From a virus, in IMG/VR virus record IMGVR_UViG_3300046001_005762, positions 1-42,667 of that record: DNA of 42,667 nt, one strand, 5' to 3'. Below are positions 20,049 through 42,667 of the stretch, piece after piece. The translations under genes were made by a program, and so were the position numbers. The notes beneath the pieces were generated by a model. It saw nothing but the letters and a program-made list of their open reading frames with translations, was not told the DNA's origin and ran no database searches. Numbering within the stretch: the first letter of the stretch is position 1; every line of letters starts with the position of its first letter.

Positions 20049-22403
20049 TTAAAACTTATTTAACCTATCTTTAATTTCTTTTTCTTCATCTTCATTATAA
20101 TCAATATAAGGTTGTTTAATCATATCAATATGTTCTTGTTTTTCATAATATTTAACACCCTCTTTTTTTTCTTCACCCTCTTTAGGTGCCAATTCTATTT
20201 TTTCTGAACTAAACACTTTTGACATCTGTGCCTTTCTTTCTTTAAAAGTAGTAGTTTGGAATTTTTCAGGTACATTTAAATTCATATCATCTAGACTTAT
20301 TTCTTTTCCTGATTTTACTAAATTTTTATCAAAAGGTCTCCACCCTGATTTCCAAGCATTTGCTAATAAAGTATTATCGTTAACTGACCCATTAGACCCA
20401 AATACTTCTTTTGTAGATTCCCACCCATATCCTTCTTTTTCGACTAAACCTCTTATATCTTCTCTATTTGCATATTTTATGTAATTATAATTGTCACCTA
20501 TCCATTGTTGTACCTCAGGTATTTCCAGCGCTTCAGTAAGAACTAAAAATAAACCTAATTCCCTTAATGCCTCTTTTCCTGCCTGTGTTTTTACAAATTT
20601 ATTTAATGATTTTATTACATCACCATTATTGGATAAAACTAAATTTTTAAATCTACTATCGTTAGAAATTCTTCTTAGGTTTGCCCTACCGATTTTTGAA
20701 TCTATCTTTGATAAAGCCTCACTATATTTATTTGCGACTGATATATCAATTTTACTAAAATCTTTAATTATATCATGACCAACTAAAATATCTGAATTAC
20801 TTAACCCATATTTATCTGCAGTTTCTTTATATATTTTAGTCAATTTAGTGTCTTTCTCCGCCGCCTTTAAATTTTTATAAATAGGTAATTCCTTTTCAGT
20901 TCTATTAATTACTTCGTTAGCATAACTATAAATTTTTGGATTTTTTTCAGCTGCAGTTAATAATCGTTTTGTTTGACTAACACCACCACCTAAAAACCCA
21001 CCAAATAAAGTTAAACCTCCTGCCAATAATGCCATATTACGTTCATCAGAACTTTTCGCAGTTGCTGCTTCTACACCATACGCACCTGCATTTACAAAAT
21101 CTAACCCCATACTAACTATTGGTCCTACACCTGGTATTGCTAATGCCGCAATAGAAGCAATATCTAATGCACAATGATAGTCAGTAAAACAATCACCTAA
21201 ATAAGACCAAATAGAACCACCAGTATTATACTTATTGATAGACCCAATACCACTTGGGATATCGTATGATGAAATTGATTTTATGTTTTGTGTAATGACA
21301 TTTAAGTTATTAGTTCCCCAGTATGCATTAAACCACCCCCACCATCCATCGGGAAATAAATTAGACTTATATGCATCTTTATCACTTCTAAATGTATCAT
21401 CTAAGTCTTTTTGTAACTTACCGAAGTCAAAATAAAAATTAGATAAGTAAACAACAAACTGTGCTGGATGTTTACCAATCGTTTTTGATGACACTACCTT
21501 TCCCATTTCATAGTCAAAATACTTTGCGGTATAGAATAAAGGTGGTGCACAAGTACTACCTACAGATGTAACACATACCTCAACGTTACCCTTTACAGAG
21601 GATATAACTTTATCTGAAATAAGTCCACTTGTTAAATATCTTGTTGCGTTTAAAGCACTTTGTGCCATCAGATGATTACCCGATAATGGGTTTTTTGGCA
21701 TTATATCAGGATATCCTCCTGGTGTTGACATCCCAAACCCTAATTCTTTTAAAAACGTTCTTACATTCTCAATGTTAGCATCTACAGAAGCCTTTTTATT
21801 TATAATTTCTTCTTTTTCTTTTTTGATGGAACCATCTACTTTCGAAATTACATCATCAACATCTGTCGATTTAACAGAATTAACCCAAATGGAGTTTAAT
21901 TTCTTTATTTCCTCTTTCCCATTATAATAATTTTTTTCATTAGGATCAATAGTTTGACTTAAGGTTGCACCGTCACTACTATTCCACCATTCTTTATTTT
22001 TATAATTGTAAGAGTATCTATATTCCCCACCTTTAGATAGGTTTATAAACTCTGATCCCGCTGCGGTTGATAACCAAACGGAATCGAATTTTGTTTTTCC
22101 TACTTTATAAGATTTTAGGAAAGAACCACCGTATGGGTTACTACTTGTTTCATCTAAATCGTATATACTTTTTTTACCGTATTTTTTACTAAGATCATCC
22201 GAAGAGTTTGCCCATTGTCTATACAATTTGGCAATAGTTTTTTGTTTTTGACTAATAACACCATTCACAGTTAAATCCTCAATATTTGACGTACTACGCC
22301 AATTCAAAGTGTCTCCTTTAACAGGAACTTGCCATAAAACTGGTTGTTCATTTAAAAAAACTCTTTTATATTGTTCTTCAGATATTACTACTCTTTTCTT
22401 CAT
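20049..22403 (-). CDS. Probable ejected protein with membrane-active segment and ISEEQYK leader
   Basis: 784 residues, function not recognised. The leader MKKRVVISEEQYKRVFLNEQ has a possible cleavage at LNE-Q (17-20). Residues about 405-480 hold a strongly hydrophobic Gly/Ala-rich stretch, DIASIAALAIPGVGPIVSMG then LDFVNAGAYGVEAA, and MALLAGGLTLFGGFLGGGVS. Such segments occur in pore-forming or injected phage proteins and in pre-toxin regions. The C-terminal half is helical and Lys-rich, and the last 60 residues are acidic (EGEEKKEG, NEDEEKEIKDRL). It starts 27 bases after the stop of the 385-residue gene, with no promoter element between. My reading is an internal head protein that enters the cell with the DNA. 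No catalytic motif was identified. Confidence 0.6.
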   Translation of the reverse strand: MKKRVVISEEQYKRVFLNEQPVLWQVPVKGDTLNWRSTSNIEDLTVNGVISQKQKTIAKLYRQWANSSDDLSKKYGKKSIYDLDETSSNPYGGSFLKSYKVGKTKFDSVWLSTAAGSEFINLSKGGEYRYSYNYKNKEWWNSSDGATLSQTIDPNEKNYYNGKEEIKKLNSIWVNSVKSTDVDDVISKVDGSIKKEKEEIINKKASVDANIENVRTFLKELGFGMSTPGGYPDIMPKNPLSGNHLMAQSALNATRYLTSGLISDKVISSVKGNVEVCVTSVGSTCAPPLFYTAKYFDYEMGKVVSSKTIGKHPAQFVVYLSNFYFDFGKLQKDLDDTFRSDKDAYKSNLFPDGWWGWFNAYWGTNNLNVITQNIKSISSYDIPSGIGSINKYNTGGSIWSYLGDCFTDYHCALDIASIAALAIPGVGPIVSMGLDFVNAGAYGVEAATAKSSDERNMALLAGGLTLFGGFLGGGVSQTKRLLTAAEKNPKIYSYANEVINRTEKELPIYKNLKAAEKDTKLTKIYKETADKYGLSNSDILVGHDIIKDFSKIDISVANKYSEALSKIDSKIGRANLRRISNDSRFKNLVLSNNGDVIKSLNKFVKTQAGKEALRELGLFLVLTEALEIPEVQQWIGDNYNYIKYANREDIRGLVEKEGYGWESTKEVFGSNGSVNDNTLLANAWKSGWRPFDKNLVKSGKEISLDDMNLNVPEKFQTTTFKERKAQMSKVFSSEKIELAPKEGEEKKEGVKYYEKQEHIDMIKQPYIDYNEDEEKEIKDRLNKF

Positions 22404-24262: not shown

Positions 24263-25084
24263 TTATTTTTTTATAATTATTCTTTTCTTTTTAGGATTTT
24301 TAGGGTCAGATGTATCGTAAATAATAAAATTTATTTCAGGATACAATTTTTGTAACTCATCCTCTATTAATTTTTCTATTATTTTAACATTATCTTCATC
24401 ATCGTCACTAAAACCTACACTAATCCCTTCAAACTCTGAATTATTTTTTATATTACCAATTTGTTTCACCACCTTTTCAACAAAACTTCTAAAGGCAATC
24501 TCCTTCCCTTTTTCAGGATTTGTACCACTCACATTTAAATCAAATTTATTTAAAAACTCTTCAGAAGAAACTGGATGATAATCCTGTAAATTTAAATACT
24601 CATCGATAGATAAACCATTTAGATTTTTCTCCATTTCTTTTCTCTCATCCCAATTGAGTGACTTTTCAATTAGTATCTTAATACCGTCTTTTATGGCTTG
24701 TGGTGAATTAGATCTAGCAGTAATAATTGAGAAGTCACTACCACTAATTAAAGCCTCTTTAAACTTATTAAAACTTGGTCCGTAACTTCTATAATTTAGT
24801 GATTCTTTTACATCTCTTATAAATGCGTCATAATCTCTAAAATCTTTAAAAGATTGTTTAATATCATTGTTGAGATATCTAAACTCTGTCCCTATTTTAT
24901 GTCTGATACTTCTAAATTGTTCTGTAGAAACTGATATCGGTGCCCACATTAAACCATTAATACTATAATCTAAATGTATTCTTGTTGGCATATTAAGAAT
25001 ATTGTCATCCCAATCAAATGAGTAAACCTTTTTCTTTGTTTCCTTTAAAATTTTGTATTGTGATTCACTAATTTTAATATTCAT
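24263..25084 (-). CDS. HAD-superfamily phosphatase with ISESQYK leader
   Basis: 273 residues. HAD motif I is VYSFDWDDN, with D24 (nucleophile) and D26. Motif II is SIITARSN at about residue 120. Motif IV is VGFSDDDEDN at about 226, where the acidic pair would hold Mg. These make a magnesium-dependent phosphatase or phosphohydrolase fold likely; the substrate is unknown. The N-terminus NIKISESQYKILKE resembles the ISEEQYK leader of the 784-residue protein, so this enzyme may also be packed in the virion. It lies between the small Cys protein and the tail tube, an unusual place for an enzyme. A terminator and an ATATTTATAT element immediately precede it, the element only 3 bases from the ATG. 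Confidence 0.7.
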   Translation of the reverse strand: MNIKISESQYKILKETKKKVYSFDWDDNILNMPTRIHLDYSINGLMWAPISVSTEQFRSIRHKIGTEFRYLNNDIKQSFKDFRDYDAFIRDVKESLNYRSYGPSFNKFKEALISGSDFSIITARSNSPQAIKDGIKILIEKSLNWDERKEMEKNLNGLSIDEYLNLQDYHPVSSEEFLNKFDLNVSGTNPEKGKEIAFRSFVEKVVKQIGNIKNNSEFEGISVGFSDDDEDNVKIIEKLIEDELQKLYPEINFIIYDTSDPKNPKKKRIIIKK

Positions 25085-25157: not shown

Positions 25158-25448
25158 TTAATATTCTATTGGCATATTACCTTTGTCTTTAAGACAATTT
25201 AAAGCAGTTACGGCTTTCATACCCATACCAAGTGGATCACTAGCAACCATTTTTGCCAATTCCTCCACACATTTAGCAGCATCACCTGACACACATGCCA
25301 TAGGTGGTTTAATACCAGCATCTTTACAACATTTAGCCAAATCATCCTTTGGATCACTTTCGGCTTCCTCTCTTAATACAACCCCAACAATTCTTTTTAA
25401 ATCACTTTCAGTAAGAGTAATGATTTTTCCATTTTTTTTAATTTTCAT
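25158..25448 (-). CDS. Small cysteine-containing protein with LTESDLKRIV leader
   Basis: 96 residues, role unknown. The leader region GKIITLTESDLKRIVGVVLR closely resembles the LTESDLHRIIKESV leader I recall from phages of gut Bacteroides. A possible cleavage LRE-E (25-28) would release a mature part of about 69 residues with five cysteines (40, 41, 52, 60, 85) in a small helical fold: LAKCCKDAGIKPPMACVSGD, then AAKCVEELAKMVASD. It begins 30 bases after the sheath stop and is followed by a terminator, so it is made with the sheath. It could be an injected effector or a small structural protein. Confidence 0.65.
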   Translation of the reverse strand: MKIKKNGKIITLTESDLKRIVGVVLREEAESDPKDDLAKCCKDAGIKPPMACVSGDAAKCVEELAKMVASDPLGMGMKAVTALNCLKDKGNMPIEY

Positions 25449-28469: not shown

Positions 28470-28625
28470 ATGAAAAGGGATAAAAATTTAAAAATAACCC
28501 CACAAACACATAAATTACTAAAGGAATATTGTGAGGATAATGGTTTGAAAATGTTCGCATTTGTAGAAAAACTAATCAAAGATAAGTGTAAACCAAAAAA
28601 AGATATGTATGGTGATGAAGTATAA
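28470..28625 (+). CDS. Ribbon-helix-helix (CopG/Arc-like) regulator
   Basis: 51 residues, first gene of the plus-strand unit, 37 bases before the glycosyltransferase. It has the strand-helix-helix pattern: KNLKITPQTHKLLKEYCEDN gives a short beta strand and helix one, then GLKMFAFVEKLIKDKCK gives a turn and helix two, with a basic end. Such proteins bind DNA as dimers through the paired strand and repress their own promoters. The repeated hexamer just upstream is the natural target. It probably controls the glycosyltransferase gene as well, since the two appear co-transcribed. An antisense frame across this region is a shadow. Confidence 0.7.
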   Translation: MKRDKNLKITPQTHKLLKEYCEDNGLKMFAFVEKLIKDKCKPKKDMYGDEV

Positions 28626-28662
28626 TCTTTATTTTTCCAAAAATTACACCTAATATTATTCA

Positions 28663-31600
28663 ATGAAAAAGTTACTATTGATTACACCGCACCTATCTAC
28701 TGGTGGTGCACCACAATTTACTTTAAATAGGATTGAACTATTAAAAAACGATTACGAAGTTTATTGTGTGGAGTATAGTTTTTTATCTCCGCATTTTGTT
28801 GTTCAAAGAAACAAAATTATTAATTTATTAGATGAGAGATTTTTTGCCTTAGAACATGATAAAGATAATATTGTAAATATCATTAATTCAGTTAATCCTG
28901 ATATAATATCAATAGAGGAATTATCGGAAACGTTTATAGATAGACATATTTTAGATTTTATATATAAAAAAGATAGGACTTGGAAAATAATAGAAACTAC
29001 TCATAGTTCTCACAATAATTCAGAAAGTAAAATTTATTTACCTGACAAATTTATTTTTGTGTCCGAATGGTCAAAAAAAATGTATTCACATTTTAATGTA
29101 GAATCTGAAGTTATTGAATACCCAGTGGATAAAAAAGAATTAAAAAGAGAAGAGTGTAAAGAAAAACTAAACCTAAATGACGGAAATATCCATATCTTAA
29201 ATGTTGGTTTGTTCACACCAGGTAAAAATCAAGGATACGCCTTTGAAATCGCAAGAAAATTTTTAGGTCAGAATGTACTTTTTCATTTTGTAGGTAATCA
29301 GGCAGGTAATTTTGAAGATTATTGGATTCCGATTGTAGAAAACAAACCTGATAATTGTATACTTTGGGGAGAAAGGGATGACGTTGAGGATTTTATTATG
29401 GCATCAGATATGTTTCTCTTTACATCTGTATTAGAATTAAACCCATTAGTTATAAAAGAAATTATGTGTTATGATATACCAGTATCTATGTTTAATTTAG
29501 AAACATATTGTGGTGTTTACGATAATAATGAAAAAATTTCATTTTTAACGGGTAATGTAGATATAGACACAAATAAAATAAAAAGTTTATTGTCGATTGA
29601 TGAAACAAATAACAATGGTAAATATGAAAAGTCTTATGTGTTTTACGCCACAGAAAAATATTTTGATATTGTAAATAAATCTGTGGAGTCGATAAGACAA
29701 TTTAGTGAATTACCAATAATTGTTTATTTATTAAATTCTGATAGAAAAATAAATGTTGAAAATACTATTACAGTAAATTGGGATTGTAATATTAGTGAAT
29801 CAGATAATATGTTTGTTAATGAAAATGAAAATTTTTATATTAACCGATCAAACAGTGAGATATATAATATTTTAATTCAAAGACCATTAATCGTAAAAGA
29901 TGCCTTAGAAAAATATTCTAATATTGTTGCGTATGTTGATAGTGATTCTATCGCAACTAAATGTGTTGACAATATTTTTGATATGTACGATAAAAATGTA
30001 AACTATCCTTATTTTGTTGAGGGAATCTACGATTTTTTAATTATCAACGGAAGGGGTGGATCCACAAGTAAAGATGATTTAATAGGTACATTAGAACACC
30101 CAGCCTGTGAGTTATTTGGGGTTAACCAAAGTATTAGAGAAAAATATAGACAAACGGGATATTTTGTAACAGGACAAAACAGTATAGAATTTTTAGAAGA
30201 ATGGTATCAGATGTGTATTCATCCTGAGGTACTTAAAGACAACGAATGGTTTGCACCTTTTAATGAAGAAACAATTGCAAATGTACTACTTTGGAAAAAG
30301 GGTATATTAAATGGTTTACCATACATATATGTTAATGGTACATTAGAAACAATTGGTAAAGTCGAATCTTTAGGATTCAACGGTGTTGCAACACATTATA
30401 GTGATTGGTTTAAAATTCCTGAACAAAGAGAAAAATTATTATTTTATCACGGTGAAAAACGAATAGACGTTTTAGATAAGATGATAAAAAAATTAAAAGG
30501 GTTATATTATAAAAATATAAAAATTGCGGATGCAGGATATGTGATTAATTTACCACATAGAGTAGATAGGAAAGAGAGTGTTATAAAAACACTTAAAGAT
30601 TTAGAGATAACTGGTTATGAATTTGTTGACGGTACAATTATAGAGGATCCTGAATATAAAAAATTAGGGTGTACTGCCTCTTATTTAGAAATTTTTAAAA
30701 ATGTTTTAAAAAGTGATTTAGAGAATATAATTGTTATTGAAGATGATGTTAAATTAATGAATGGTGTAACTAAACACCATTTAGATAACATATTTAACGT
30801 ATGGGATAAAACAATAAAAAATTACGATGTTGTTGCGTTAGGTGTTAAACTTTTACCAAGAAGTGAAATTATTGTTAATAATAAAACACACGGTAGTTTT
30901 GAAGAAATGTTATGTAGTCAATCATTATTTTATCACAGACATTTTATAGAACATTATGTTAGTCAAATGGAAAATTATTTAAATCCTGAACATTACCTTT
31001 ATAAATGTACGGTAGATATGTTTTTAAATGATTGTTCTTGTGAGGAGTATAGATTTATTCATTCAAAAAATCATAAAAAATATAATTTTGGTATTACGAT
31101 ACCTATGATATTCACTCAAACAGATACTTTTTCAGATAATGAATTTGCCCCACAAAATTATGATAATATAATGGAGAAATCATTTTGGGATTCTTTATCT
31201 AAATCGGATATACAATCTGATAAAATAATTAAATGTATTGGATCTGTTGATTCAACAAAAACTAAAGAAAAATATATTAATGTTATGGAAAATACAAAAA
31301 TCAATAAAAACGATAATTTACATTTTAATGTAAATTTTGTTAATCAACCATTCTTCGAAATAAAAGGTAATACCGATAAAAATTATACTGTAGAATTTAT
31401 AGATTCAAAAGGTGAAACTAAATACAATTCTTCTTTAAGAACAAATATGTGGTCAAAAATGAATCGTAGTTACTTTGAAGAATGGACAATAAAGGTAACA
31501 TCGGATGATGGGTTTGAAAAAATAATTAAATATGATGCGAAAGGAAAGAGAGTTTATATTGCAATAGATTCTTCTGCCTTAGGAGATACTATTGCGTGGA

Positions 31601-33408
31601 TTCCATATATAGATGAATTTAGAAAGAAGTGGGATTGTGAGGTAATAGTATCTACTTTTTGGAATCATCTATTTGAAAAAACATACCCTAATTTAATTTT
31701 TAGTAAACCAGGTGAACCTGTACATAATTTATATGCAATGTATAAATTAGGTTGGTTTTACAATGTAGATATGGAACCAGAACTACCTAATACTATTCCA
31801 TTACAAAAAACTGCAACAAATATTTTAGGTTTAGAATATAATGAATTAAAACCAGAAATAAATTTTGTACCTAAAAAAAATCCTGTAAATGGAAAATATG
31901 TAGTAATATCTCCATACTCAACGGCAGGTTTAAAACATTGGGATTTTGAAAAATGGGAAAATTTATCTAAATGGTTAATTAGTTTAGGGTATAAAGTATA
32001 TAATATTTCAAAAGATAAAGTGTTCTCTAATTATGTCTTTAATATAACGGACACCTCTATCGAAAATACTATGAATTACATTTATCATAGTGAATTTATG
32101 GTTGGGTTGTCTAGTGGATTATCTTGGTTATCTTGGGGAATGAATAAACATGTGTTTATGATATCTAATTTTACTGAACCTGATCATGAATTCACAAAAA
32201 ACTGTACTAGGTTTATCAATAAATCTGTTTGTAATGGTTGTTGGAATAACCCTAAATTTAAATTTGATAAAGGAGATTGGGATTGGTGTCCTGAACATAA
32301 GGGTACCGAAAGACAATTTGAATGTCATAAGTCGATATCAGTGGATGATGTAATTAATGGTATAAAAAAATATCTATCCCCAACCAAAGAAAATAATAAT
32401 GATGTACATTACGATTTCGTAGAAATTGGTACGTCAGATTTTGATACTTTAATAGAGACATCTGATGACAATACTGTTGGACTTAGTATAGAACCAATTA
32501 AGTATTATTTAGATAGATTACCCGAAAGAAAAAATGTTAAAAAACTACAATTGGCGTTATCAGATACCGATGGGTTTATGGACATTTATTATATCCCAAA
32601 TGAAAAAATAGTAGAACACTCATTACCTTTTTGGGTTAGAGGTACAAATTCAATAAATAAACCTCACCCATTTGCCGTTAAAAAAATAGGTAAAGAAATT
32701 TATGATTCTGTTGTTAAAATAGAAAAAACCCCAACAATAACGTGGGATACTTTAGTTAAACAAGAAAAAATAAAATCTATTGGGTTTTTAAAAATTGATA
32801 CAGAAGGTCATGATCATATTATATTAAATGATTATTTAAAATTGTGTGAGTTAAACCCAAACCTATTGGCAGAAAAAATTCAATTTGAGTATCATTCAGA
32901 AATTTCAAATATTGACGAACTTGAAAAAATTATTTTAAAGTTTAATAATTATAGTATTGAAAGAAATGAAATGGATGTGACGCTAACTAAGATTAAATCT
33001 ACAGTAAATCAAAATAATGATATAAAAAAATTACAAACAGAAATAGAGGTTTCTATTGGTGAAATAGTTGATAAATTATCTATATTACGATTAAAGTTAA
33101 TTAATATAACTGATACAGAAAAATTAAAAAACGTAACAAAAGAATATGACTATCTCTATAAAATTGTTTTTAATGATATTAAAATTGAAACATCTGATTT
33201 TGATAGAATGGTTTCTATTAATAAAATACTTTGGGATGTTGAGGATAGTATCAGAGAAAAAGAGAGGAACAAAGAATTTGACACCGATTTTATAGAAATG
33301 GCTAGATCTGTTTACATCACAAATGATCAAAGGGCTGAAATCAAAAAAGAAATTAATAAAAAATATGGTTCTTCATTTGTTGAAGAAAAATCATATAAAG
33401 AATATTAA
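28663..33408 (+). CDS. Giant multi-domain glycosyltransferase/methyltransferase
   Basis: 1581 residues, soluble, no signal peptide. Domains seen, in order: (1) residues 1-325, GT4-like GT-B transferase (TGGAPQFTLNRIE; NVGLFTPGKNQGY at 180; ELNPLVIKE at 258). (2) About 330-615, GT-A type with D-S-D at 426-428. (3) About 622-850, GT25-like (VINLPHRVDR from 627, IEDDV at 692-696). (4) About 885-1240, autotransporter O-heptosyltransferase-like (ALGDTIAWIPY from 972, GLKHWD at 1089) with an iron-finger-type Cys set C1190, C1193, C1209, C1221. (5) About 1245-1440, FkbM-like methyltransferase (VEIGTSDFD from 1253, KIDTEGHD at 1377-1384). (6) About 1460-1581, DUF6165-like (VSIGEIVDKLSIL). It would add and then methylate sugars, plausibly on Ser/Thr of the neighbouring fibre. 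Its stop lies 12 bases from the fibre stop. Confidence 0.85.
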   Translation: MKKLLLITPHLSTGGAPQFTLNRIELLKNDYEVYCVEYSFLSPHFVVQRNKIINLLDERFFALEHDKDNIVNIINSVNPDIISIEELSETFIDRHILDFIYKKDRTWKIIETTHSSHNNSESKIYLPDKFIFVSEWSKKMYSHFNVESEVIEYPVDKKELKREECKEKLNLNDGNIHILNVGLFTPGKNQGYAFEIARKFLGQNVLFHFVGNQAGNFEDYWIPIVENKPDNCILWGERDDVEDFIMASDMFLFTSVLELNPLVIKEIMCYDIPVSMFNLETYCGVYDNNEKISFLTGNVDIDTNKIKSLLSIDETNNNGKYEKSYVFYATEKYFDIVNKSVESIRQFSELPIIVYLLNSDRKINVENTITVNWDCNISESDNMFVNENENFYINRSNSEIYNILIQRPLIVKDALEKYSNIVAYVDSDSIATKCVDNIFDMYDKNVNYPYFVEGIYDFLIINGRGGSTSKDDLIGTLEHPACELFGVNQSIREKYRQTGYFVTGQNSIEFLEEWYQMCIHPEVLKDNEWFAPFNEETIANVLLWKKGILNGLPYIYVNGTLETIGKVESLGFNGVATHYSDWFKIPEQREKLLFYHGEKRIDVLDKMIKKLKGLYYKNIKIADAGYVINLPHRVDRKESVIKTLKDLEITGYEFVDGTIIEDPEYKKLGCTASYLEIFKNVLKSDLENIIVIEDDVKLMNGVTKHHLDNIFNVWDKTIKNYDVVALGVKLLPRSEIIVNNKTHGSFEEMLCSQSLFYHRHFIEHYVSQMENYLNPEHYLYKCTVDMFLNDCSCEEYRFIHSKNHKKYNFGITIPMIFTQTDTFSDNEFAPQNYDNIMEKSFWDSLSKSDIQSDKIIKCIGSVDSTKTKEKYINVMENTKINKNDNLHFNVNFVNQPFFEIKGNTDKNYTVEFIDSKGETKYNSSLRTNMWSKMNRSYFEEWTIKVTSDDGFEKIIKYDAKGKRVYIAIDSSALGDTIAWIPYIDEFRKKWDCEVIVSTFWNHLFEKTYPNLIFSKPGEPVHNLYAMYKLGWFYNVDMEPELPNTIPLQKTATNILGLEYNELKPEINFVPKKNPVNGKYVVISPYSTAGLKHWDFEKWENLSKWLISLGYKVYNISKDKVFSNYVFNITDTSIENTMNYIYHSEFMVGLSSGLSWLSWGMNKHVFMISNFTEPDHEFTKNCTRFINKSVCNGCWNNPKFKFDKGDWDWCPEHKGTERQFECHKSISVDDVINGIKKYLSPTKENNNDVHYDFVEIGTSDFDTLIETSDDNTVGLSIEPIKYYLDRLPERKNVKKLQLALSDTDGFMDIYYIPNEKIVEHSLPFWVRGTNSINKPHPFAVKKIGKEIYDSVVKIEKTPTITWDTLVKQEKIKSIGFLKIDTEGHDHIILNDYLKLCELNPNLLAEKIQFEYHSEISNIDELEKIILKFNNYSIERNEMDVTLTKIKSTVNQNNDIKKLQTEIEVSIGEIVDKLSILRLKLINITDTEKLKNVTKEYDYLYKIVFNDIKIETSDFDRMVSINKILWDVEDSIREKERNKEFDTDFIEMARSVYITNDQRAEIKKEINKKYGSSFVEEKSYKEY

Positions 33409-33420
33409 TTTATTTTACCC

Positions 33421-36400
33421 TTAACACGCATGTGCGGTAGTACATGGTCCACAATCTAAGTATGGTGTAATTGTACCTAAAACCGCAGTGGCTGGTCCAG
33501 TACTAGCACTAAAAAATTCCCAACAATTATCCGACGCACTGTCATAGAACGTACCATTTAAATCATTTGAGGTTAATAACACTACTTCGTTAGGTAATAC
33601 CAGACAACAGTCTTGAATTTCAACCCACTGACAGGTATTAGCACTTAAACAAGATTGACAACTATCGAATATGGGTGTATTAGGAATATATAATGTAGGT
33701 GTTAATGTAGTTGCACTAACTGGGGAAAAACAATTACCTTGACCATCTACATAAGTTTTACCAATATCATAATTTCCATAAGTTACACCAGTTGCTTCGA
33801 ACCCAGTATCACAACAAGTCTCGAATAAATAATAATCTAACTCACAAACATTTCCATCTGCAAGACATTCTCCACAAGAATCGTAAAGATTAACTGCTCT
33901 CACCACTACACCCCAGTTTTCTGGTCCTGTAACGTCCCAACCAAGAACTTCCCAACAAACACCATTATCATCCGAAAATGTTGTTTTAGTTGGAGGAACA
34001 TAAAGCATTTCTGCGATTATAACGTGAGATGGATCACAACATTCTCTAAGTGTGACAAAGATAGTTTCAGGACAATAACAATCGTCTACTATATCATCAC
34101 ATACTAAACTTGTTCCTAATATTTCACTAACTAATGTTATACTATAATTAGTTGGTAAGCTAGTAGATGTTGTACCAATTTTCCAACAAAGACCATCACT
34201 ATCTACCCAATATTCACCAGCATTAACACCAGTACTCGCTGGTATAGGTATATATTCAGGACTTAATGTAGTACAACAAGGTTCTACATAGTATACTAAA
34301 GGACACTCATTAACACCTGTACATCCTGAACAACTCGTATATCCTGACGTACCTATCATTATTGAGGGTGCGGTAATAGGTAAACTTGTACCTGTAACAA
34401 CATCCCAACAAAAACCATTATCATCAACAAAGGTATCTCCTAAAACTAAACCTACTGCACCAGCCACATATTCTTCTCCATCTAAACAACAATTACTTAA
34501 TATAAAATTATCTGGACATGTATTACTATCGATACAATCCGCACAATCAGTATAATTATTAACTAAAGTTCTATAACTATTTGGGGATGAAACTGTAAGT
34601 GACTCAATCTCCCAACAATTTCCTTCCGCATCACTCCAAAAAGAACCTATTGTTAATGAGACACCTAAAACAATTTCAGTATATGCTGGTTCACAACAGT
34701 TTCTTAATAAATAAAATTCTCCATTAGGAATTGTACAATCTCTCGTATAATTTAATGTATAACTAAATTTACCCAATGTTTTTCCAGACCATTGTCCATT
34801 TATTCCCACAAAATCCATCCCAACTACATAATGTACGTCACATGCATCTAAATATTCTGTTAACACATGTGTTATATCAAAACATGTTAAAAGATTTGGA
34901 TTCCATTGGAATGGGGTAGGATTAACTACCGTATTCAATATGATACCACCTTTCCCAATACCTTTCTCCACATAATCTGAACATTTATAGGAATACAAAC
35001 CGATAAGAAAATATCCACCTCCTGATGGCGTTTCTGTATCTGTCGTCAAATAGGCACTACCACATAATCTTATTTCATCACCATATCTTATATTAACTGG
35101 CGAAGGTACCCCAAGATTTGTAAATCCTGATCTTAGAGGTTGGATAAACCCGTTCCATTTCGAACCTGTGTCCCATGGACAACCGTTCCAACCGCAGAAG
35201 TTCCCACCCATCCAAAGTGTAATATTTCCTGAATTACCAATTGATCCTGTGGAACTATATGACGTTGGAGTCCAATACCCAGAATTAGACGCAATTAAAG
35301 TATGATCAATTGTACAACCACTAGTTACCCCATTTACACCTGACGTACCACTGGTACCATTTGTACCTGTATTAGACCCATCTCTACCACTAGTTCCAGA
35401 CGTTCCTGTTATTCCACTAGATCCAGATGTACCACTAGATCCAGATTCCCCATTTACACCACTTGTACCAGATGTTCCTGACGTTCCTGTTGTTCCTGAT
35501 GTACCACTAGTTCCTGTTGTTCCTGATGTACCACTCGTACCACTAGATCCAGATGCCCCATTCACACCACTTGTACCACTAGTTCCTGTTGTTCCTGATG
35601 TACCACTCGTACCACTCGATCCAGATGCGCCATTCACACCACTTGTACCTGATGTTCCTGTAGTACCCGATGTTCCTGAAGTTCCAGATGTACCACTTGA
35701 TCCTGACGCCCCATTCACACCGCTAGTCCCACTAGTACCTGTGGTTCCTGATGTACCACTAGACCCAGATGTACCATTTACACCACTTGTCCCCGAAGTA
35801 CCACTCGTACCTCTAGTTCCTGAACTTCCACTAGTTCCTGAAGTTCCAGTAGTACCACTAGTTCCTGTTGTACCTGACGTTCCTGAAGAACCACTCAACC
35901 CACTAGTACCTGACGTTCCAGATGTCCCTGACGTACCACTAGTTCCTGTTGTCCCACTTGTCCCACTACTTCCATTCAGTCCTGAAGTTCCACTAGTACC
36001 ACTTGTACCTGTAGTTCCGCTTGTTCCTGAAGTTCCTCTAGAACCTGAACTACCACTTGACCCAGACGTCCCACTAGTACCAGTTGTTCCTGAAGTACCA
36101 CTTGTACCACTACTTCCATTCAGTCCTGATGTTCCACTAGTACCAGTTGTACCTGATGTTCCTGAACTTCCGTTGATACCACTAGTACCTGATGTCCCAG
36201 TTGTTCCTGAAGTACCGCTTGTTCCTGAAGTTCCTGTAGTTCCCGAAGTTCCACTTGTACCGCTAGAACCATTCAACCCACTAGTACCTGATGTACCACT
36301 AGTTCCTGTTGTTCCAGATGTACCGCTTGTACCAGTAGTTCCTGAAGTACCACTACTACCATTCAGACCTGAAGTTCCACTAGTACCAGTTGTTCCTGAT

Positions 36401-39400
36401 GTACCCGAACTTCCGTTGATACCACTAGTACCTGACGTACCAGATGTTCCACTAGTACCTCTAGATCCAGAACTACCACTTGTTCCACTAGTTCCTGTTG
36501 TTCCAGAGGTTCCAGAGGTACCAGTTGTTCCTGATGTACCACTAGATCCATTAACTCCACTAGTTCCTGATGTTCCAGACGTACCAGTTGTACCTGATGT
36601 TCCGCTAGTTCCTGTTGTTCCTGATGTACCACTACTTCCACTCAGTCCACTAGTACCTGAAGTACCAGTAGTTCCTGATGTACCGCTAGAACCATTCAAC
36701 CCACTGGTTCCTGAAGTACCACTGGTTCCTGAAGTACCACTAGTTCCTGATGTTCCTCTAGTACCTGAACTTCCACTAGACCCCGATGTTCCACTAGTTC
36801 CAGTCGTACCACTAGACCCTGAAGTACCAGACGTTCCTGTTGTCCCACTAGTTCCACTACTACCATTCAGTCCTGAAGTACCTGATGTACCAGACGTTCC
36901 TGATGTACCACTAGTTCCAGTTGTTCCTGAGGTTCCACTCGATCCTGAAGTACCATCTCTACCACTTGTACCACTTGTTCCTGTTGTACCTGAAGTACCT
37001 GAACTTCCACTAGACCCCGATGTTCCACTAGATCCTGAAGTACCAGACGTTCCTGTCGTTCCACTAGTTCCTGTTGTTCCAGAGGTTCCTGAAGTACCAC
37101 TAGATCCATTAACTCCACTAGTACCTGACGTACCTGAAGTTCCTGATGTACCAGTTGTTCCTGATGTACCTGAAGTTCCACTAGATCCTGAAGTACCATC
37201 TCTACCACTAGTACCACTTGTTCCAGATGTTCCAGTTGTTCCACTAGTACCTGATGTACCAGTTGTCCCTGAACTACCACTAGACCCTGAAGTACCAGAC
37301 GTTCCACTCGTTCCTGTAGTTCCTGATGTACCACTAGTTCCTGTTGTACCTGAGGTTCCTGAAGAACCATTTAATCCACTAGTCCCACTTGTTCCTGAAG
37401 TACCTGACGTTCCTGTTGAACCTGAAGTACCTGAAGTCCCTGAGGTTCCTGTCGTTCCCGAAGTACCAGATGTACCTGAACTTCCACTTGTTCCAGATGT
37501 ACCTGATGTCCCAGACGTTCCACTAGATCCTGATGTACCTGAAGTACCAGATGTTCCAGAAGTACCACTACTTCCACTACTTCCACTTGTACCATCTCTA
37601 CCACTTGTTCCTGATGTACCTGATGTACCACTTGTTCCTGAAGTACCAGATGTTCCACTTGTACCTCTACTACCTGAAGATCCACTAGATCCTGAAGTAC
37701 CTGATGTTCCTGTTGTTCCAGAAGTACCACTTGTCCCAGAAGTTCCTGTTGTTCCTGAAGACCCTGAAGTTCCATCTCTACCACTTGTACCGCTAGATCC
37801 TGATGTACCTGATGTACCAGTAGTTCCTGATGTCCCACTCGTACCTGAAGTTCCTGTTGTTCCAGAAGTACCACTTGTTCCAGATGAACCAGTAGTCCCT
37901 GAAGTTCCACTACTTCCACTTGTACCATCTCTACCACTTGTTCCTGATGTACCACTTGTTCCTGAGGTTCCTGAAGATCCACTAGTACCTGCAGTTCCAC
38001 TCGTTCCTGTAGTTCCTGATGTTCCACTAGTTCCTGTGGTACCTGATGTACCGCTAGAACCATTCAACCCACTAGTACCTGATGTACCACTAGTTCCAGA
38101 TGTACCACTACTACCTGAAGATCCACTAGATCCAGATGTCCCACTTGTTCCTGTTGTCCCAGAAGTACCACTTGTTCCTGTTGTCCCAGAAGTACCGTCT
38201 CTTCCACTAGTACCTGAAGATCCACTAGTACCTGACGTACCAGTTGTCCCAGACGTACCAGAGGTTCCTGTTGTCCCACTAGTACCTGAAGTACCTGACG
38301 TTCCTGTTGAACCTGAAGTACCTGAGGTTCCTGTCGTTCCCGAAGTACCAGATGTACCTGAACTTCCAGACGTACCTGAGGTTCCTGATGTACCTGAAGT
38401 TCCACTTGTTCCTGACGTTCCATTAGTACCACTTGTTCCTGAAGATCCACTACTCCCACTTGTTCCAGATGTACCAGAAGTTCCACTTGTTCCAGATGTA
38501 CCAGAAGTTCCTGTTGTTCCACTTGTTCCTGAGGTACCTGAACTTCCAGACGTACCAGTTGTTCCAGAAGTACCTGATGTACCACTACTACCACTAGTTC
38601 CAGATGTTCCTGAAGTACCAGTAGTTCCTGACGTTCCCGAACTACCACTAGTACCTGATGTACCACTACTTCCACTCAGTCCTGACGTACCACTAGTTCC
38701 TGTAGTCCCAGAGGTTCCACTTGTTCCTGAAGTACCTGATGTTCCTGAAGACCCACTGACTCCACTACTTCCACTTGTTCCTGATGAACCACTTGTTCCA
38801 CTTGTACCTGAAGTTCCACTTGTCCCACTAGACCCCGATGTCCCAGAACTACCCGAAGTTCCTGTTGAACCAGATGTACCACTAGTTCCTGTTGTTCCAG
38901 AAGTTCCAGAAGTACCTGAAGATCCTGAAGATCCTGATGTTCCGTCTCTACCACTTGTTCCTGATGTACCGCTTGTTCCAGACGTACCAGTAGTTCCTGA
39001 TGTTCCTGAACTTCCACTTGTTCCTGTTGTGCCAGATGTTCCACTAGTTCCTGTAGTCCCAGATGTCCCACTTGTTCCACTAGATCCTGAAGTTCCACTA
39101 CTACCTGAAGTTCCTGTTGTACCACTACTACCTGAAGTTCCTGTTGTACCAGATGTTCCTGAACTTCCACTTGTTCCTGACGTACCTGTAGTACCAGATG
39201 TACCTGAAGTACCACTCGTTCCACTACTACCACTTATTCCTGAAGATCCACTTGTACCTGATGTACCAGACGTTCCTGTTGTTCCACTTGTTCCTGTAGT
39301 CCCAGATGTCCCACTAGTTCCTGTAGTCCCAGATGTCCCACTTGTTCCACTAGATCCTGAAGTTCCACTACTACCACTTGTTCCAGATGTTCCAGTTGTT

Positions 39401-42400
39401 CCTGACGTACCACTTGAACCCGAACTACCAGAAGTACCACTTGAACCTGAGGTTCCGCTAGTACCTGTAGTTCCTGATGAACCACTACTTCCACTTATTC
39501 CTGATGAACCACTAGTACCAGAAGTTCCTGTTGTACCACTAGTTCCACTTGTACCTGTTGTTCCTGATGTTCCACTAGTTCCAGAACTACCACTAGTACC
39601 ACTAGTACCCGATGTACCAGATGTTCCACTCGTTCCTGAAGATCCACTGATTCCGCTACTTCCAGATGTACCTGAGGTACCCGTAGTCCCACTAGTACCT
39701 GAGGTACCCGAACTTCCACTTGTCCCAGATGTTCCTGAGGTACCTGTTGTTCCACTAGTACCTGACGAACCACTTGTTCCCGATGTTCCTGTGGTTCCTG
39801 ATGTACCGCTAGTTCCACTTGTTCCTGTTGAACCCGAAGTCCCTGACGTACCCGTAGTTCCACTTGTTCCTGATGTTCCACTACTTCCACTTATTCCAGA
39901 TGTACCACTAGACCCTGATGTTCCAGTTGTACCTGAAGTTCCACTACTTCCACTTATTCCTGATGAACCGCTAGTACCTGATGTTCCACTAGTTCCACTA
40001 GTTCCACTTGTTCCTGACGTACCAGTTGTTCCTGAGGTACCTGAACTTCCACTTGTTCCTGAAGTTCCAGTTGTTCCACTTGTCCCGTTAGACCCTGAAG
40101 AACCATCCTTACCATCAATACCTGAAGTTCCTGATGTACCTGTTGTTCCACTAGTACCACTAGTACCTGTTGACCCTGATGTACCACTTGTTCCTGAAGA
40201 TCCACTCGTTCCTGTTGAACCTGATGTCCCACTTGTACCTGACGTACCTGAACTTCCAGATGTTCCTGAGGTACCTGAAGTACCAGTAGTCCCACTAGAC
40301 CCTGAACTTCCACTCGTACCTGAAGTTCCAGAAGTACCACTACTTCCACTTATTCCTGACGAACCACTAGTTCCAGTACTTCCACTAGACCCTGATGTAC
40401 CTGATGTTCCAGATGTACCAGTTGTTCCACTAGACCCACTTGTCCCTGAAGTACCTGTTGTCCCACTAGTTCCTGACGAACCACTAGTTCCAGTACTTCC
40501 ACTTGTTCCCGAAGAACCACTAGTTCCTGAACTACCAGAAGTCCCACTTGTTCCTGAAGTACCTGTAGTTCCTGATGTCCCACTAGATCCACTAGTTCCT
40601 GTTGAACCCGAAGTACCACTTGTACCTGAAGTCCCGCTATGCCCATCTATACCACTAGTGCCAGATGTACCAGAGGTTCCTGTTGAACCCGATGTACCAC
40701 TAGATCCAGACGTTCCTGAAGTTCCTGTTGTTCCACTTGTTCCTGAAGAACCAGTTGTACCTGATGAACCCGATGTCCCTGAACTACCACTAGTTCCACT
40801 TGTTCCTGATGTTCCACTAGTACCTGACGTACCACTACTTCCACTTATTCCTGATGAACCACTAGTACCTGAAGTACCTGACGTTCCTGTTGTTCCACTT
40901 GTTCCTGATGTACCAGACGTACCTGAAGTTCCACTAGACCCTGACGTACCAGAGGTACCTGATGTACCACTTGTTCCCGAAGACCCACTGACTCCACTAC
41001 TTCCTGAAGTACCACTCGTTCCACTAGTACCAGATGTTCCTGTTGTTCCACTTGTACCTGATGTACCAGATGTTCCAGAACTACCACTTGCTCCTGATGA
41101 ACCATCAATACCTGATGTACCACTTGTTCCACTAGTCCCTGATGTACCACTTGTACCATCTATACCTGAACTACCTGAAGTCCCATCGATTCCACTTGTC
41201 CCTGACGTACCACTAGTCCCACTTGTTCCACTTGTTCCTGTAGTACCCGAAGTACCTGAGGTACCACTAGTTCCATTTGTTCCAGAAGTACCACTACTAC
41301 CACTTATCCCTGAAGATCCACTAGTACCTGATGTACCAGAGGTTCCACTACTTCCACTTATTCCTGATGATCCACTAGTACCTGACGTACCAGTAGTTCC
41401 AGATGTTCCTGTAGTCCCTGATGTTCCAGAACTACCCGAAGTTCCTGTAGATCCAGATGTTCCACTAGTTCCTGATGTTCCTGTTGAACCTGAAGTACCA
41501 CTAGTCCCATCAATACCACTTGTTCCCGAAGTACCATCAATCCCTGAAGTACCTGAAGTCCCACTAGACCCTGAAGTACCACTACTTCCACTTGTTCCTG
41601 ATGAACCTGAAGTTCCTGACGAACCTGAAGAACCTGAAGTACCACTTGTTCCCGAAGTACCATCAATACCACTTGTTCCACTTGTACCTGATGTACCAGA
41701 GGTACCACTACTTCCACTTATTCCTGATGAACCACTTGTTCCTGAAGTCCCTGAAGTCCCATCACTACCGCTAGTACCACTAGTTCCTGTTGAACCCGAA
41801 GTACCACTACTTCCATCTATACCTGACGTACCTGAAGTACCACTACTTCCATTTATCCCTGAAGTTCCAGATGTTCCACTAGTTCCAGATGTTCCACTAG
41901 TACCTGTTGACCCTGAAGTCCCACTAGTTCCAGATGTTCCAGAGGTTCCAGAGGTTCCTGTTGAACCAGATGTACCACTTGTTCCTGAAGTACCTGATGT
42001 CCCACTTGTTCCATTTATTCCTGAGGTTCCACTAGTCCCTGAAGTCCCATCAATTCCTGACGTACCAGAGGTTCCATCTATCCCTGATGTCCCTGACGTT
42101 CCGTCAATACCACTTGTACCTGATGTTCCTGTTGTTCCTGAAGTTCCACTAGTTCCGTCTATTCCAGAACTACCACTCGTTCCTGATGTACCACTACTTC
42201 CACTCGTCCCTGATGTACCTGATGTACCATCTATACCTGAACTACCTGAAGTTCCACTATTTCCAGATGTACCACTAGACCCTGAAGTACCTGTTGTCCC
42301 ACTTGTTCCTGAGGTACCTGAAGTTCCACTTGTTCCGCTAGTTCCTGATGTGCCAGTAGTCCCTGATGAACCATCTGTTCCTGAACTTCCACTAGTTCCT

Positions 42401-42667
42401 GAAGAACCTGTGGTCCCTGAAGATCCACTAGATCCACTGATACCACTAGACCCTGATGTACCACTAGTTCCACTAGTTCCTGATGTACCATCTATACCTG
42501 AACTACCTGAAGTCCCTGAAGATCCACTAGTACCTGTCGTCCCACTAGTACCATTAGTACCTGAAGAACCAGAAGTCCCACCAACACCACTCGATCCTGA
42601 AGTCCCATCAATACCACTAGTACCTGATGTACCAGACGTTCCTGTTGTCCCTGAACTACCACTAGTA
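33421..42667 (-). CDS. Giant collagen-like fibre protein with Cys-rich C-terminus, N-terminus beyond window
   Basis: At least 3081 residues; one frame stays open from the stop at 33421 to the window edge, checked at 38067 and at 42667. No ATG, GTG or TTG was found in frame upstream of a TTG at 38067, which is simply an internal Leu codon of the repeat, so the real start lies outside. N-terminal part (35325-42667): about 800 Gly-X-Y triplets, mostly GTS, GTT and GSS, with GRD, GLN, GVN, GID and GIS between. Then a globular domain (about 34739-35324) opens SGCTIDHTLIASNSGYWTPT. Last come six Cys-rich repeats (33424-34738). It is probably a long tail fibre or adhesin whose C-terminal end binds the host. 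No transmembrane segment is visible. Confidence 0.85.
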   Translation of the reverse strand, partial: TSGSSGTTGTSGTSGTSGIDGTSGSSGVGGTSGSSGTNGTSGTTGTSGSSGTSGSSGIDGTSGTSGTSGTSGSSGISGSSGSSGTTGSSGTSGSSGTDGSSGTTGTSGTSGTSGTSGTSGTSGTTGTSGSSGTSGNSGTSGSSGIDGTSGTSGTSGSSGTSGTSGSSGIDGTSGTSGTTGTSGTSGIDGTSGTSGIDGTSGTSGIDGTSGTSGTSGINGTSGTSGTSGTSGTSGSTGTSGTSGTSGTSGTSGSTGTSGTSGTSGTSGTSGINGSSGTSGTSGIDGSSGTSGSTGTSGTSGSDGTSGTSGTSGSSGISGSSGTSGTSGTSGTSGIDGTSGTSGTSGSSGSSGTSGSSGTSGSSGTSGSSGTSGTSGIDGTSGTSGIDGTSGTSGSTGTSGTSGTSGSTGTSGSSGTSGTTGTSGTTGTSGTSGSSGISGSSGTSGTSGTSGSSGISGSSGTSGTNGTSGTSGTSGTTGTSGTSGTSGTSGTSGIDGTSGSSGIDGTSGTSGTSGTSGTSGIDGSSGASGSSGTSGTSGTSGTTGTSGTSGTSGTSGSSGVSGSSGTSGTSGTSGTSGSSGTSGTSGTSGTSGTTGTSGTSGTSGSSGISGSSGTSGTSGTSGTSGTSGSSGTSGSSGTTGSSGTSGTTGTSGTSGSSGTSGSTGTSGTSGTSGIDGHSGTSGTSGTSGSTGTSGSSGTSGTTGTSGTSGTSGSSGTSGSSGTSGSTGTSGSSGTSGTTGTSGTSGSSGTTGTSGTSGTSGSSGSTGTSGSSGISGSSGTSGTSGTSGSSGSSGTTGTSGTSGTSGSSGTSGTSGTSGSTGTSGSSGTSGTSGSTGTSGTSGTTGTSGTSGIDGKDGSSGSNGTSGTTGTSGTSGSSGTSGTTGTSGTSGTSGTSGTSGTSGSSGISGSSGTSGTTGTSGSSGTSGISGSSGTSGTSGTTGTSGTSGSTGTSGTSGTSGTTGTSGTSGSSGTSGTTGTSGTSGTSGSSGTSGTSGTTGTSGTSGSSGISGSSGTSGTSGTSGTSGTSGSSGTSGTSGTTGTSGTSGTTGTSGTSGSSGISGSSGSSGTTGTSGTSGSSGTSGSSGSSGTSGTTGTSGTSGSSGTSGSSGTSGTSGTTGTSGTSGTTGTSGTTGTSGTSGTSGSSGISGSSGTSGTSGTSGTTGTSGTSGSSGTSGTTGTSGSSGTTGTSGSSGTSGSSGTSGTSGTTGTSGTSGTTGTSGSSGTSGTTGTSGTSGTSGTSGRDGTSGSSGSSGTSGTSGTTGTSGTSGSTGTSGSSGTSGSSGTSGTSGTSGTSGSSGTSGSSGVSGSSGTSGTSGTSGTSGTTGTSGTSGLSGSSGTSGTSGSSGTSGTTGTSGTSGTSGSSGTSGTSGTTGTSGSSGTSGTSGTTGTSGTSGTSGTSGTSGTSGSSGSSGTSGTNGTSGTSGTSGTSGTSGTSGSSGTSGTSGTTGTSGTSGSTGTSGTSGTSGTTGTSGTSGTTGTSGTSGSSGTSGRDGTSGTTGTSGTSGTTGTSGTSGSSGSSGSSGTSGTSGTSGTSGLNGSSGTSGTTGTSGTSGTTGTSGTAGTSGSSGTSGTSGTSGTSGRDGTSGSSGTSGTTGSSGTSGTSGTTGTSGTSGTSGTTGTSGTSGSSGTSGRDGTSGSSGTTGTSGTSGTSGTTGTSGTSGSSGSSGSRGTSGTSGTSGTSGTSGTSGTSGRDGTSGSSGSSGTSGTSGTSGTSGSSGTSGTSGTSGTSGSSGTSGTSGTTGTSGTSGTSGSTGTSGTSGTSGTSGLNGSSGTSGTTGTSGTSGTTGTSGTSGTSGSSGSSGTTGTSGTSGTTGTSGTSGTSGRDGTSGSSGTSGTSGTTGTSGTSGTSGTSGVNGSSGTSGTSGTTGTSGTTGTSGTSGSSGTSGSSGSSGTSGTTGTSGTSGRDGTSGSSGTSGTTGTSGTSGTSGTSGTSGLNGSSGTSGTTGTSGTSGSSGTTGTSGTSGSSGSSGTRGTSGTSGTSGTSGTSGTSGLNGSSGTSGTTGTSGTSGLSGSSGTSGTTGTSGTSGTTGTSGTSGTSGVNGSSGTSGTTGTSGTSGTTGTSGTSGSSGSRGTSGTSGTSGTSGINGSSGTSGTTGTSGTSGLNGSSGTSGTTGTSGTSGTTGTSGTSGTSGLNGSSGTSGTSGTTGTSGTSGTSGTTGTSGTSGINGSSGTSGTTGTSGTSGLNGSSGTSGTSGTTGTSGTSGSSGSSGSRGTSGTSGTTGTSGTSGTSGLNGSSGTSGTTGTSGTSGTSGTSGTSGLSGSSGTSGTTGTSGTTGTSGTSGSSGTRGTSGTSGTSGVNGTSGSSGTSGTTGTSGTSGVNGASGSSGTSGTSGTSGTTGTSGTSGVNGASGSSGTSGTSGTTGTSGTSGVNGASGSSGTSGTSGTTGTSGTSGTTGTSGTSGTSGVNGESGSSGTSGSSGITGTSGTSGRDGSNTGTNGTSGTSGVNGVTSGCTIDHTLIASNSGYWTPTSYSSTGSIGNSGNITLWMGGNFCGWNGCPWDTGSKWNGFIQPLRSGFTNLGVPSPVNIRYGDEIRLCGSAYLTTDTETPSGGGYFLIGLYSYKCSDYVEKGIGKGGIILNTVVNPTPFQWNPNLLTCFDITHVLTEYLDACDVHYVVGMDFVGINGQWSGKTLGKFSYTLNYTRDCTIPNGEFYLLRNCCEPAYTEIVLGVSLTIGSFWSDAEGNCWEIESLTVSSPNSYRTLVNNYTDCADCIDSNTCPDNFILSNCCLDGEEYVAGAVGLVLGDTFVDDNGFCWDVVTGTSLPITAPSIMIGTSGYTSCSGCTGVNECPLVYYVEPCCTTLSPEYIPIPASTGVNAGEYWVDSDGLCWKIGTTSTSLPTNYSITLVSEILGTSLVCDDIVDDCYCPETIFVTLRECCDPSHVIIAEMLYVPPTKTTFSDDNGVCWEVLGWDVTGPENWGVVVRAVNLYDSCGECLADGNVCELDYYLFETCCDTGFEATGVTYGNYDIGKTYVDGQGNCFSPVSATTLTPTLYIPNTPIFDSCQSCLSANTCQWVEIQDCCLVLPNEVVLLTSNDLNGTFYDSASDNCWEFFSASTGPATAVLGTITPYLDCGPCTTAHAC
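33424..34738 (-). repeat. Six tandem Cys-rich domains at the fibre C-terminus
   Basis: Six units of about 65-77 residues with the pattern CC, about 25-30 residues, D-x-x-G-x-C-W (or C-F), about 25-30 residues, then C-x-x-C. Examples are LLRNCCEPAY with EGNCWEIES and CADC, and LFETCCDTGF with QGNCFSPVS and CQSC; the third unit has CYC in the last position. Spacing varies and sequence identity is low, so the copies are old. Disulphides are likely outside the cell. Confidence 0.75.
35325..42667 (-). repeat. Gly-X-Y (mainly GTS) repeat tract
   Basis: About 7.3 kb encode Gly-X-Y triplets, with Thr or Ser at most X and Y positions. I saw no proline. At the DNA level the tract is not a simple tandem repeat: Gly alternates GGT and GGA, Thr uses ACT, ACA and ACG, and Ser uses AGT, TCA and TCT, so exact repeats are short. 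ACTAGT (Thr-Ser) recurs many times. It runs to the window edge. Confidence 0.9.

Follow-up and report, generated by a model that had tools for sequence, protein, structure and literature searches.

The 1581-residue enzyme and the giant collagen-like fibre encoded side by side in a T4-like phage probably constitute a phage-encoded O-glycosylation module, in which a TibC-type domain would attach the first sugar to the fibre stalk and the fused modules would extend it. From sequence comparison, we assign this reading a probability of roughly 0.8. The two genes are located in a viral stretch of 42,667 nucleotides (IMG/VR record IMGVR_UViG_3300046001_005762), the whole of which is referred to as the window.

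Enzyme and fibre genes of the window

The window, a 42.7-kb virus contig, was assigned to a T4-like myovirus by its gene content, which includes a recognisable UvsX-like recombinase, single-strand binding protein, baseplate wedge, tail tube, and tail sheath. Judged by the sheath, the closest named relative is Microcystis phage Mel-JY01, whose sheath shares 36% identity with that of the window. The enzyme ORF sits upstream of the tail sheath gene on the opposite strand. A reading of the DNA made earlier from the letters alone (the sequence-only reading) had described the enzyme and the fibre as a convergent pair with 12 bases between their stops, and the coordinates of the two ORFs agree with this description (Table 1). 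The start given there for the region, 28470, is intergenic, and the enzyme gene begins downstream of it. Elsewhere in the window (20049-22403, 24263-25084, and 25158-25448), ORFs of unlike length and body have a similar short start (e.g. MKKRVVISEEQYKRVFLNEQ, MNIKISESQYKILKE); with a loose motif search, 34 of 80 sheath-anchored loci were found to contain such starts, 68 in total.

Table 1. Features of the enzyme and fibre ORFs in the window, and positions of bacterial TibC-like loci
Feature	Position	Strand	Basis
Multidomain glycosyltransferase-methyltransferase ORF, 1581 aa	28663..33408	+	ORF and profile matches
GT4-type (GT-B) glycosyltransferase domain, ~aa 1-320	28663..29622	+	PF00534, 4.1e-10 at aa 162-318
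GT-A glycosyltransferase domain with DxD, aa 323-615	29629..30507	+	Predicted model; without Pfam match
GT25-like domain, ~aa 616-884	30508..31314	+	PF01755, 7.2e-6; PHROG 2835 glucosyltransferase, 1.5e-6
TibC/Aah-type protein O-glycosyltransferase domain, aa 885-1240	31315..32382	+	TIGR04414, 4rap_A
Iron-finger motif C-x2-C-x15-C-x11-C (C1190, C1193, C1209, C1221)	32230..32325	+	TibC alignment
FkbM methyltransferase domain, aa 1250-1430	32410..32952	+	PF05050, 8.1e-13
DUF6165 domain, aa 1461-1579	33043..33399	+	PF19662, 5.4e-9
Giant fibre ORF, 3081 aa seen, N-terminus past window end	33421..42666	-	Open frame
Stalk, 810 consecutive Gly-X-Y triplets, predicted acceptor	35371..42660	-	Triplet count
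Fibre head, ~190 aa, predicted beta sandwich	34726..35310	-	Model and relatives
C-terminal Cys-rich repeats, about 60-75 aa each	33421..34740	-	Sequence repeats
Bacterial TibC-like genes next to a GTS-, GTT-, or GSS-repeat ORF of secreted or lipoprotein-like type	L247 9821-11909; L249 7905-11071; L464 840-2422
As in the row above	L248 3366-4838 and 9917-11140

The four glycosyltransferase domains and the methyltransferase-like domain listed in the sequence-only reading were all recovered. Pfam recognised GT4, GT25, and GT9-like domains as well as the FkbM methyltransferase, and the fourth glycosyltransferase was assigned to the GT-A class by its model and DxD motif. That list had overlooked the TibC type of the GT9-like domain and the C-terminal DUF6165 domain; in 10 other clusters, DUF6165 has its own ORF close to the TibC gene. 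D104 and D106 of the GT-A domain were invariant in 24 homologues. Its model (pLDDT 92) matched GT6 transferases in a Foldseek search (E 3.9e-9, probability 1.00), and this confident GT-A model points to the GT6 blood-group transferases as the closest fold.

The fibre stalk is a single unbroken run consisting largely of GTS (483), GSS (142), and GTT (88) triplets. Ser or Thr occupies X in 741 of the 810 triplets, Y in 752, and both positions in 728, in accordance with the roughly 800 Gly-Thr/Ser-Thr/Ser triplets claimed earlier. The stalk holds 1493 Ser/Thr residues in total, and no Pro was found in its 810 triplets. Of the properties used to recognise collagen-like proteins, it thus has the long uninterrupted Gly-X-Y run and lacks X and Y positions rich in Pro/Hyp. 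A chance origin of the repeat was ruled out, because the longest Gly-X-Y run in 200 shuffles of the fibre residues was 8 triplets. The GTS triplets are encoded by 44 different nonamers, indicating that it is the protein sequence of the repeat that is conserved and that the repeat did not arise by recent expansion of the DNA; origin by DNA slippage was ruled out by the same varied codons. The fibre head (model pLDDT 75) gave weak TNF/ExsF-like matches in fold comparison and is common to other GTS fibres adjoining TibC-like genes. Beyond the head lie six or so Cys-rich repeats, which few relatives have (L129, L144, and L117) and which are possibly an exchangeable receptor-binding tip.

TibC-type core domain and its accessory modules

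TIGR04414, the profile of TibC/Aah protein O-heptosyltransferases, scored 245 bits with the whole protein and 250 bits with the domain, above the cut-off of 200 that was also passed in Mel-JY01, LR756501, and LR756504. Residues 906-1236 aligned with the sequence of the TibC crystal structure (PDB 4RAP) with an E-value of 1.9e-40, and LPS heptosyltransferase families gave only marginal matches to the core domain. As judged from these matches, the GT9-like domain is of the TibC/Aah type and is not an LPS heptosyltransferase. The bacterial enzyme is known to link sugars to Ser of surface proteins, and a dodecameric ring is a further mark of its family.

In TibC, the catalytic base D110, K230, W305, and the four Cys are reported to be essential, T226, K230, and W305 lie in the sugar site, and the Cys form the iron finger (C339/342/358/370); Arg286, which contacts the adenine of ADP-heptose, is also essential there, and the substrate consists of folded beta-helix repeats, not collagen-like triplets (PMC4358343). 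D975, T1087, K1091, and W1155 of the window enzyme align with D110, T226, K230, and W305 of TibC, respectively, and the spacing of the iron finger is identical. The equivalents of D110 and W305 and all four iron-finger Cys were kept in 55/55 cluster representatives, and those of T226 and K230 in 54/55. The residue equivalent to Arg286 is Thr in the window and is Arg in only 6 of the 55 representatives. The core mechanism looks TibC-like by these residues; the donor identity and activity of the window enzyme are not assured, given the replacement of Arg286, and for this reason we do not call it an ADP-heptosyltransferase.

ADP-heptose genes were scarce in 47 records: gmhA was detected in one of them (L089) and rfaE domain II in none above the cut-off. 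Heptose self-sufficiency was rejected on these counts, and the "self-contained" character attributed to the system by the sequence-only reading was not upheld, since the donor-sugar pathway was not seen. The donor sugar may be supplied by the host.

The modules surrounding the TibC domain include GT4 in 47 of the 55 clusters, GT-A in 21, and GT25 in 4, in addition to a methyltransferase. These accessory modules are fused or separate and vary in order, and the TibC domain is constant. Phages thus swap extension modules around a retained initiator, as a variable glycan would require, and their glycans probably do vary.

The nature of the constant domain bears on what the enzyme modifies. Pelagimyophage glycosyltransferases near fibres were interpreted as LPS modifiers (PMC7029224), and the window enzyme could similarly alter the O-chain of the host LPS against superinfection, its proximity to the fibre then reflecting a shared host-recognition island. 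The GT4, GT25, GT9, and FkbM families are indeed frequent in LPS and capsule clusters; the domain that remains constant, however, is of the protein-modifying TibC type. T4-type phages carry DNA glucosyltransferases. Glycosylation of phage DNA against restriction, as was proposed for freshwater phage glycosyltransferases (PMC10202952), is highly improbable for the window enzyme, because its core belongs to a protein O-glycosyltransferase family, a methylating multi-glycosyltransferase fusion beside a fibre is ill-suited to DNA modification, and base-modifying genes were not recognised in the gene annotation of the window.

Pairing of TibC-like genes with GTS/GSS-repeat proteins

A search with the whole glycosyltransferase protein gave near copies only, and a profile of the TibC-like domain was required, which detected at least 553 loci in IMG/VR. 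In INPHARED, only four records contained the domain, one of them from an isolate. The viral and genome scans were grouped into 55 clusters at 80% identity, two of which are bacterial. Since the best 80 loci per query were taken in the viral scans, the pairing rates apply to the part of the family that was sampled: among viral clusters with enough flank, a Ser/Thr-rich Gly-X-Y ORF was located within 1 kb in 19/50, within 3 kb in 29/45, within 6 kb in 33/41, and within 10 kb in 28/35. The two genes occur in four arrangements (convergent, same-strand downstream, same-strand upstream, and divergent), which switch repeatedly on the tree; the enzyme-fibre link thus persisted through many rearrangements. 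Mel-JY01 (PP395634), the one named isolate in which the pair was found, likewise has a TibC-like multidomain glycosyltransferase 1.7 kb from a GTS fibre ORF, with a same-strand arrangement and different accessory modules, whereas the window pair is convergent. The Mel-JY01 fibre frame (L005 2-3049), with at least 189 triplets, is unannotated and is cut by the record start; the record lists an opposite-strand CDS (739-2298) through the repeat, which is probably spurious.

Co-occurrence and adjacency across relatives, which the sequence-only reading had named as a check on its proposal, were borne out. In contrast to the clusters paired within 3 kb, none of 74 sheath-anchored loci of relatives without the enzyme had a Ser/Thr Gly-X-Y ORF. 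These control loci represent 26 clusters, in 21 of which a locus reaches 10 kb or more, and the comparison with the 3-kb rate gave a Fisher p of 1.5e-7, an approximate value that treats clusters as independent. In the whole records of control relatives, TIGR04414 and the GTS pattern were each found in 0/42. Upstream of the sheath, the eight of these control records that were read contained other ORFs without GTS repeats, several of them fibre-like by eye. With non-GTS genes and no TibC at that site in the relatives read, the enzyme and the GTS fibre appear to come and go together.

This joint gain and loss, in relatives whose upstream region was read, argues against the enzyme glycosylating other virion proteins, such as the sheath or capsid, instead of the fibre. 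Glycosylation of the capsid and of tail tube proteins is indeed known from mycobacteriophages (Freeman et al. 2023, as summarised in PMC12619734), and the window sheath carries a Ser/Thr-rich insertion, which had been put forward earlier as a second substrate. The same insertion, however, was present in relatives without the enzyme, with a similar Ser/Thr content (27-34% vs 33-34%), and the sheath insertion was accordingly rejected as a substrate. We regard modification of other virion proteins in place of the fibre as quite unlikely.

In the reverse direction, 50 GTS-positive records with a length of 20 kb or more were searched; TIGR04414 was found in 17, all of which fall among the 42 records with at least 20 triplets in the stretch read. 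The other 33 had no TibC in the sequence at hand, most records being fragments. Phage contigs L329, L284, L303, L318, L285, and L309 have about 300-950 GTS/GSS triplets, and TIGR04414 did not match their available records. The enzyme is present and the GTS pattern absent in LR756504 (636 kb; L007 19983-21149) and in the gmhA-carrying record L089, where the TibC-like gene stands alone and the whole record was searched for the pattern. The enzyme-GTS pairing is therefore not obligate.

At loci anchored on an unrelated phage glycosyltransferase, no TibC was found, and a Gly-X-Y ORF lay within 5 kb in 0/49. GTQ- or GST-type Gly-X-Y fibres were encoded 5.6 kb or more away in 13 of these 49 loci, a distribution that would fit an LPS-modifying enzyme in a host-recognition island; island clustering may thus account for some of the loose linkage, but it leaves the tight pairing unexplained. 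Among the loci of relatives of the Synechococcus phage S-SRM01 glycosyltransferase (L373-L405), the Gly-X-Y fibres are of the GTQ/GIQ or GST/GSQ type and lie 5.6 kb or more from this unrelated enzyme.

The profile scan of genome collections yielded only four bacterial loci with a TibC-like domain. In Methylomicrobium sp. RS1, an ORF located 116 bp from the TibC-like gene begins like a signal peptide and then carries 17 perfect GTS triplets. A gammaproteobacterial MAG has two lipoprotein-like GTS/GSS ORFs at distances of 0.7 and 1.3 kb, and in a Schekmanbacteria MAG the GTS/GSS protein is less close, at about 5 kb. When 369 evenly sampled gammaproteobacterial genomes were scanned, the phage-type profile matched one, which has a GTS/GTT lipoprotein-like ORF 90 bp from the TibC-like gene; the corresponding repeat pattern occurred in only 13 of the 369. 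The neighbours of classic, higher-scoring members (L465-L467) are autotransporter-like proteins of very large size that are rich in Gly/Ser and lack a GTS run. The partner therefore follows the subfamily, GTS/GSS proteins accompanying the phage-type members and autotransporter-like proteins the classic ones, and the bacterial pairs are the apparent cellular counterpart of the phage pair. Modification of host LPS is unlikely against this background, since the pairing is tight (0-3 kb), specific to GTS/GSS repeats, and also present in bacteria outside phage islands.

Predicted stalk glycosylation and related systems

Both the TibC-type family assignment and the pairing in phages and bacteria support, at the level of genomic evidence, the proposal of the sequence-only reading that the adjacent fibre repeats are glycosylated by the enzyme. 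In the predicted pathway, the TibC-type domain would transfer the first sugar to Ser, and possibly to Thr as well, in the Gly-Thr/Ser-Ser stalk; the fused GT4, GT-A, and GT25 modules would then lengthen the glycan, with possible O-methylation by the FkbM domain. The product would be a densely glycosylated fibre, in which the glycan may stiffen or solubilise the proline-free stalk, shield it from proteases, or vary the virion surface. A methylated cap, a stabilised triple helix, and masking of the virion are conceivable further consequences.

The window enzyme shares with TibC/Aah (BAHT; TIGR04414; PDB 4RAP, 4RB4) a score above the profile cut-off, the catalytic Asp, the Thr226, Lys230, and Trp305 equivalents, the iron finger, and pairing with a Gly/Ser-rich repeat protein. 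It differs in being phage-borne and fused to other glycosyltransferases and a methyltransferase, in its partner, which is a Gly-Thr/Ser-Ser stalk and not an autotransporter with AIDA-type repeats, and in the loss of Arg286, as in most phage copies. The fibre in turn resembles BclA and other glycosylated bacterial collagen-like proteins in having a Gly-X-Y stalk with Thr and a C-terminal head. The repeats of BclA contain Pro and are glycosylated by other enzymes, whereas the window repeat is without Pro and the TNF-like similarity of its head is weak. By way of analogy, Thr in the GPT repeats of BclA is O-glycosylated, and galactosylated Thr can stabilise the proline-free collagen of tube worms. 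Mycobacteriophages use phage-encoded enzymes on virion proteins, as is predicted for the window; in the work of Freeman et al. (2023), as cited in PMC12619734, capsid and tail tube C-termini are modified, whereas the acceptor predicted here from genomic pairing, a collagen-like stalk, offers hundreds of sites and would be served by a TibC-type initiator. In the literature accessible without subscription, we found neither phage enzymes of the TibC type nor their association with GTS stalks described, and no earlier account under phage heptosyltransferases or glycosylated or collagen-like phage fibres.

More tentatively, the enzymes may represent a widespread, mostly uncultured phage branch of the TibC family, with a few bacterial members, that hyperglycosylates proline-free Gly-Thr/Ser-Ser stalks from a donor other than ADP-heptose and shuffles its modules to build phage-specific, O-antigen-like glycans; the glycans may replace proline as the stabiliser of the stalk.

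We found no modification described for the long Gly-Thr-Ser fibres that aquatic and huge phages carry, and the pair provides a testable enzyme and substrate for them. Aquatic phage glycosyltransferases near fibres have been interpreted as LPS or DNA modifiers (PMC7029224, PMC10202952), and some of those in host-recognition islands would gain another interpretation. The TibC family, so far tied to bacterial autotransporters, would gain viral members and a new acceptor repeat, and many environmental phages are predicted to carry variable, self-made sugar coats on their fibres.
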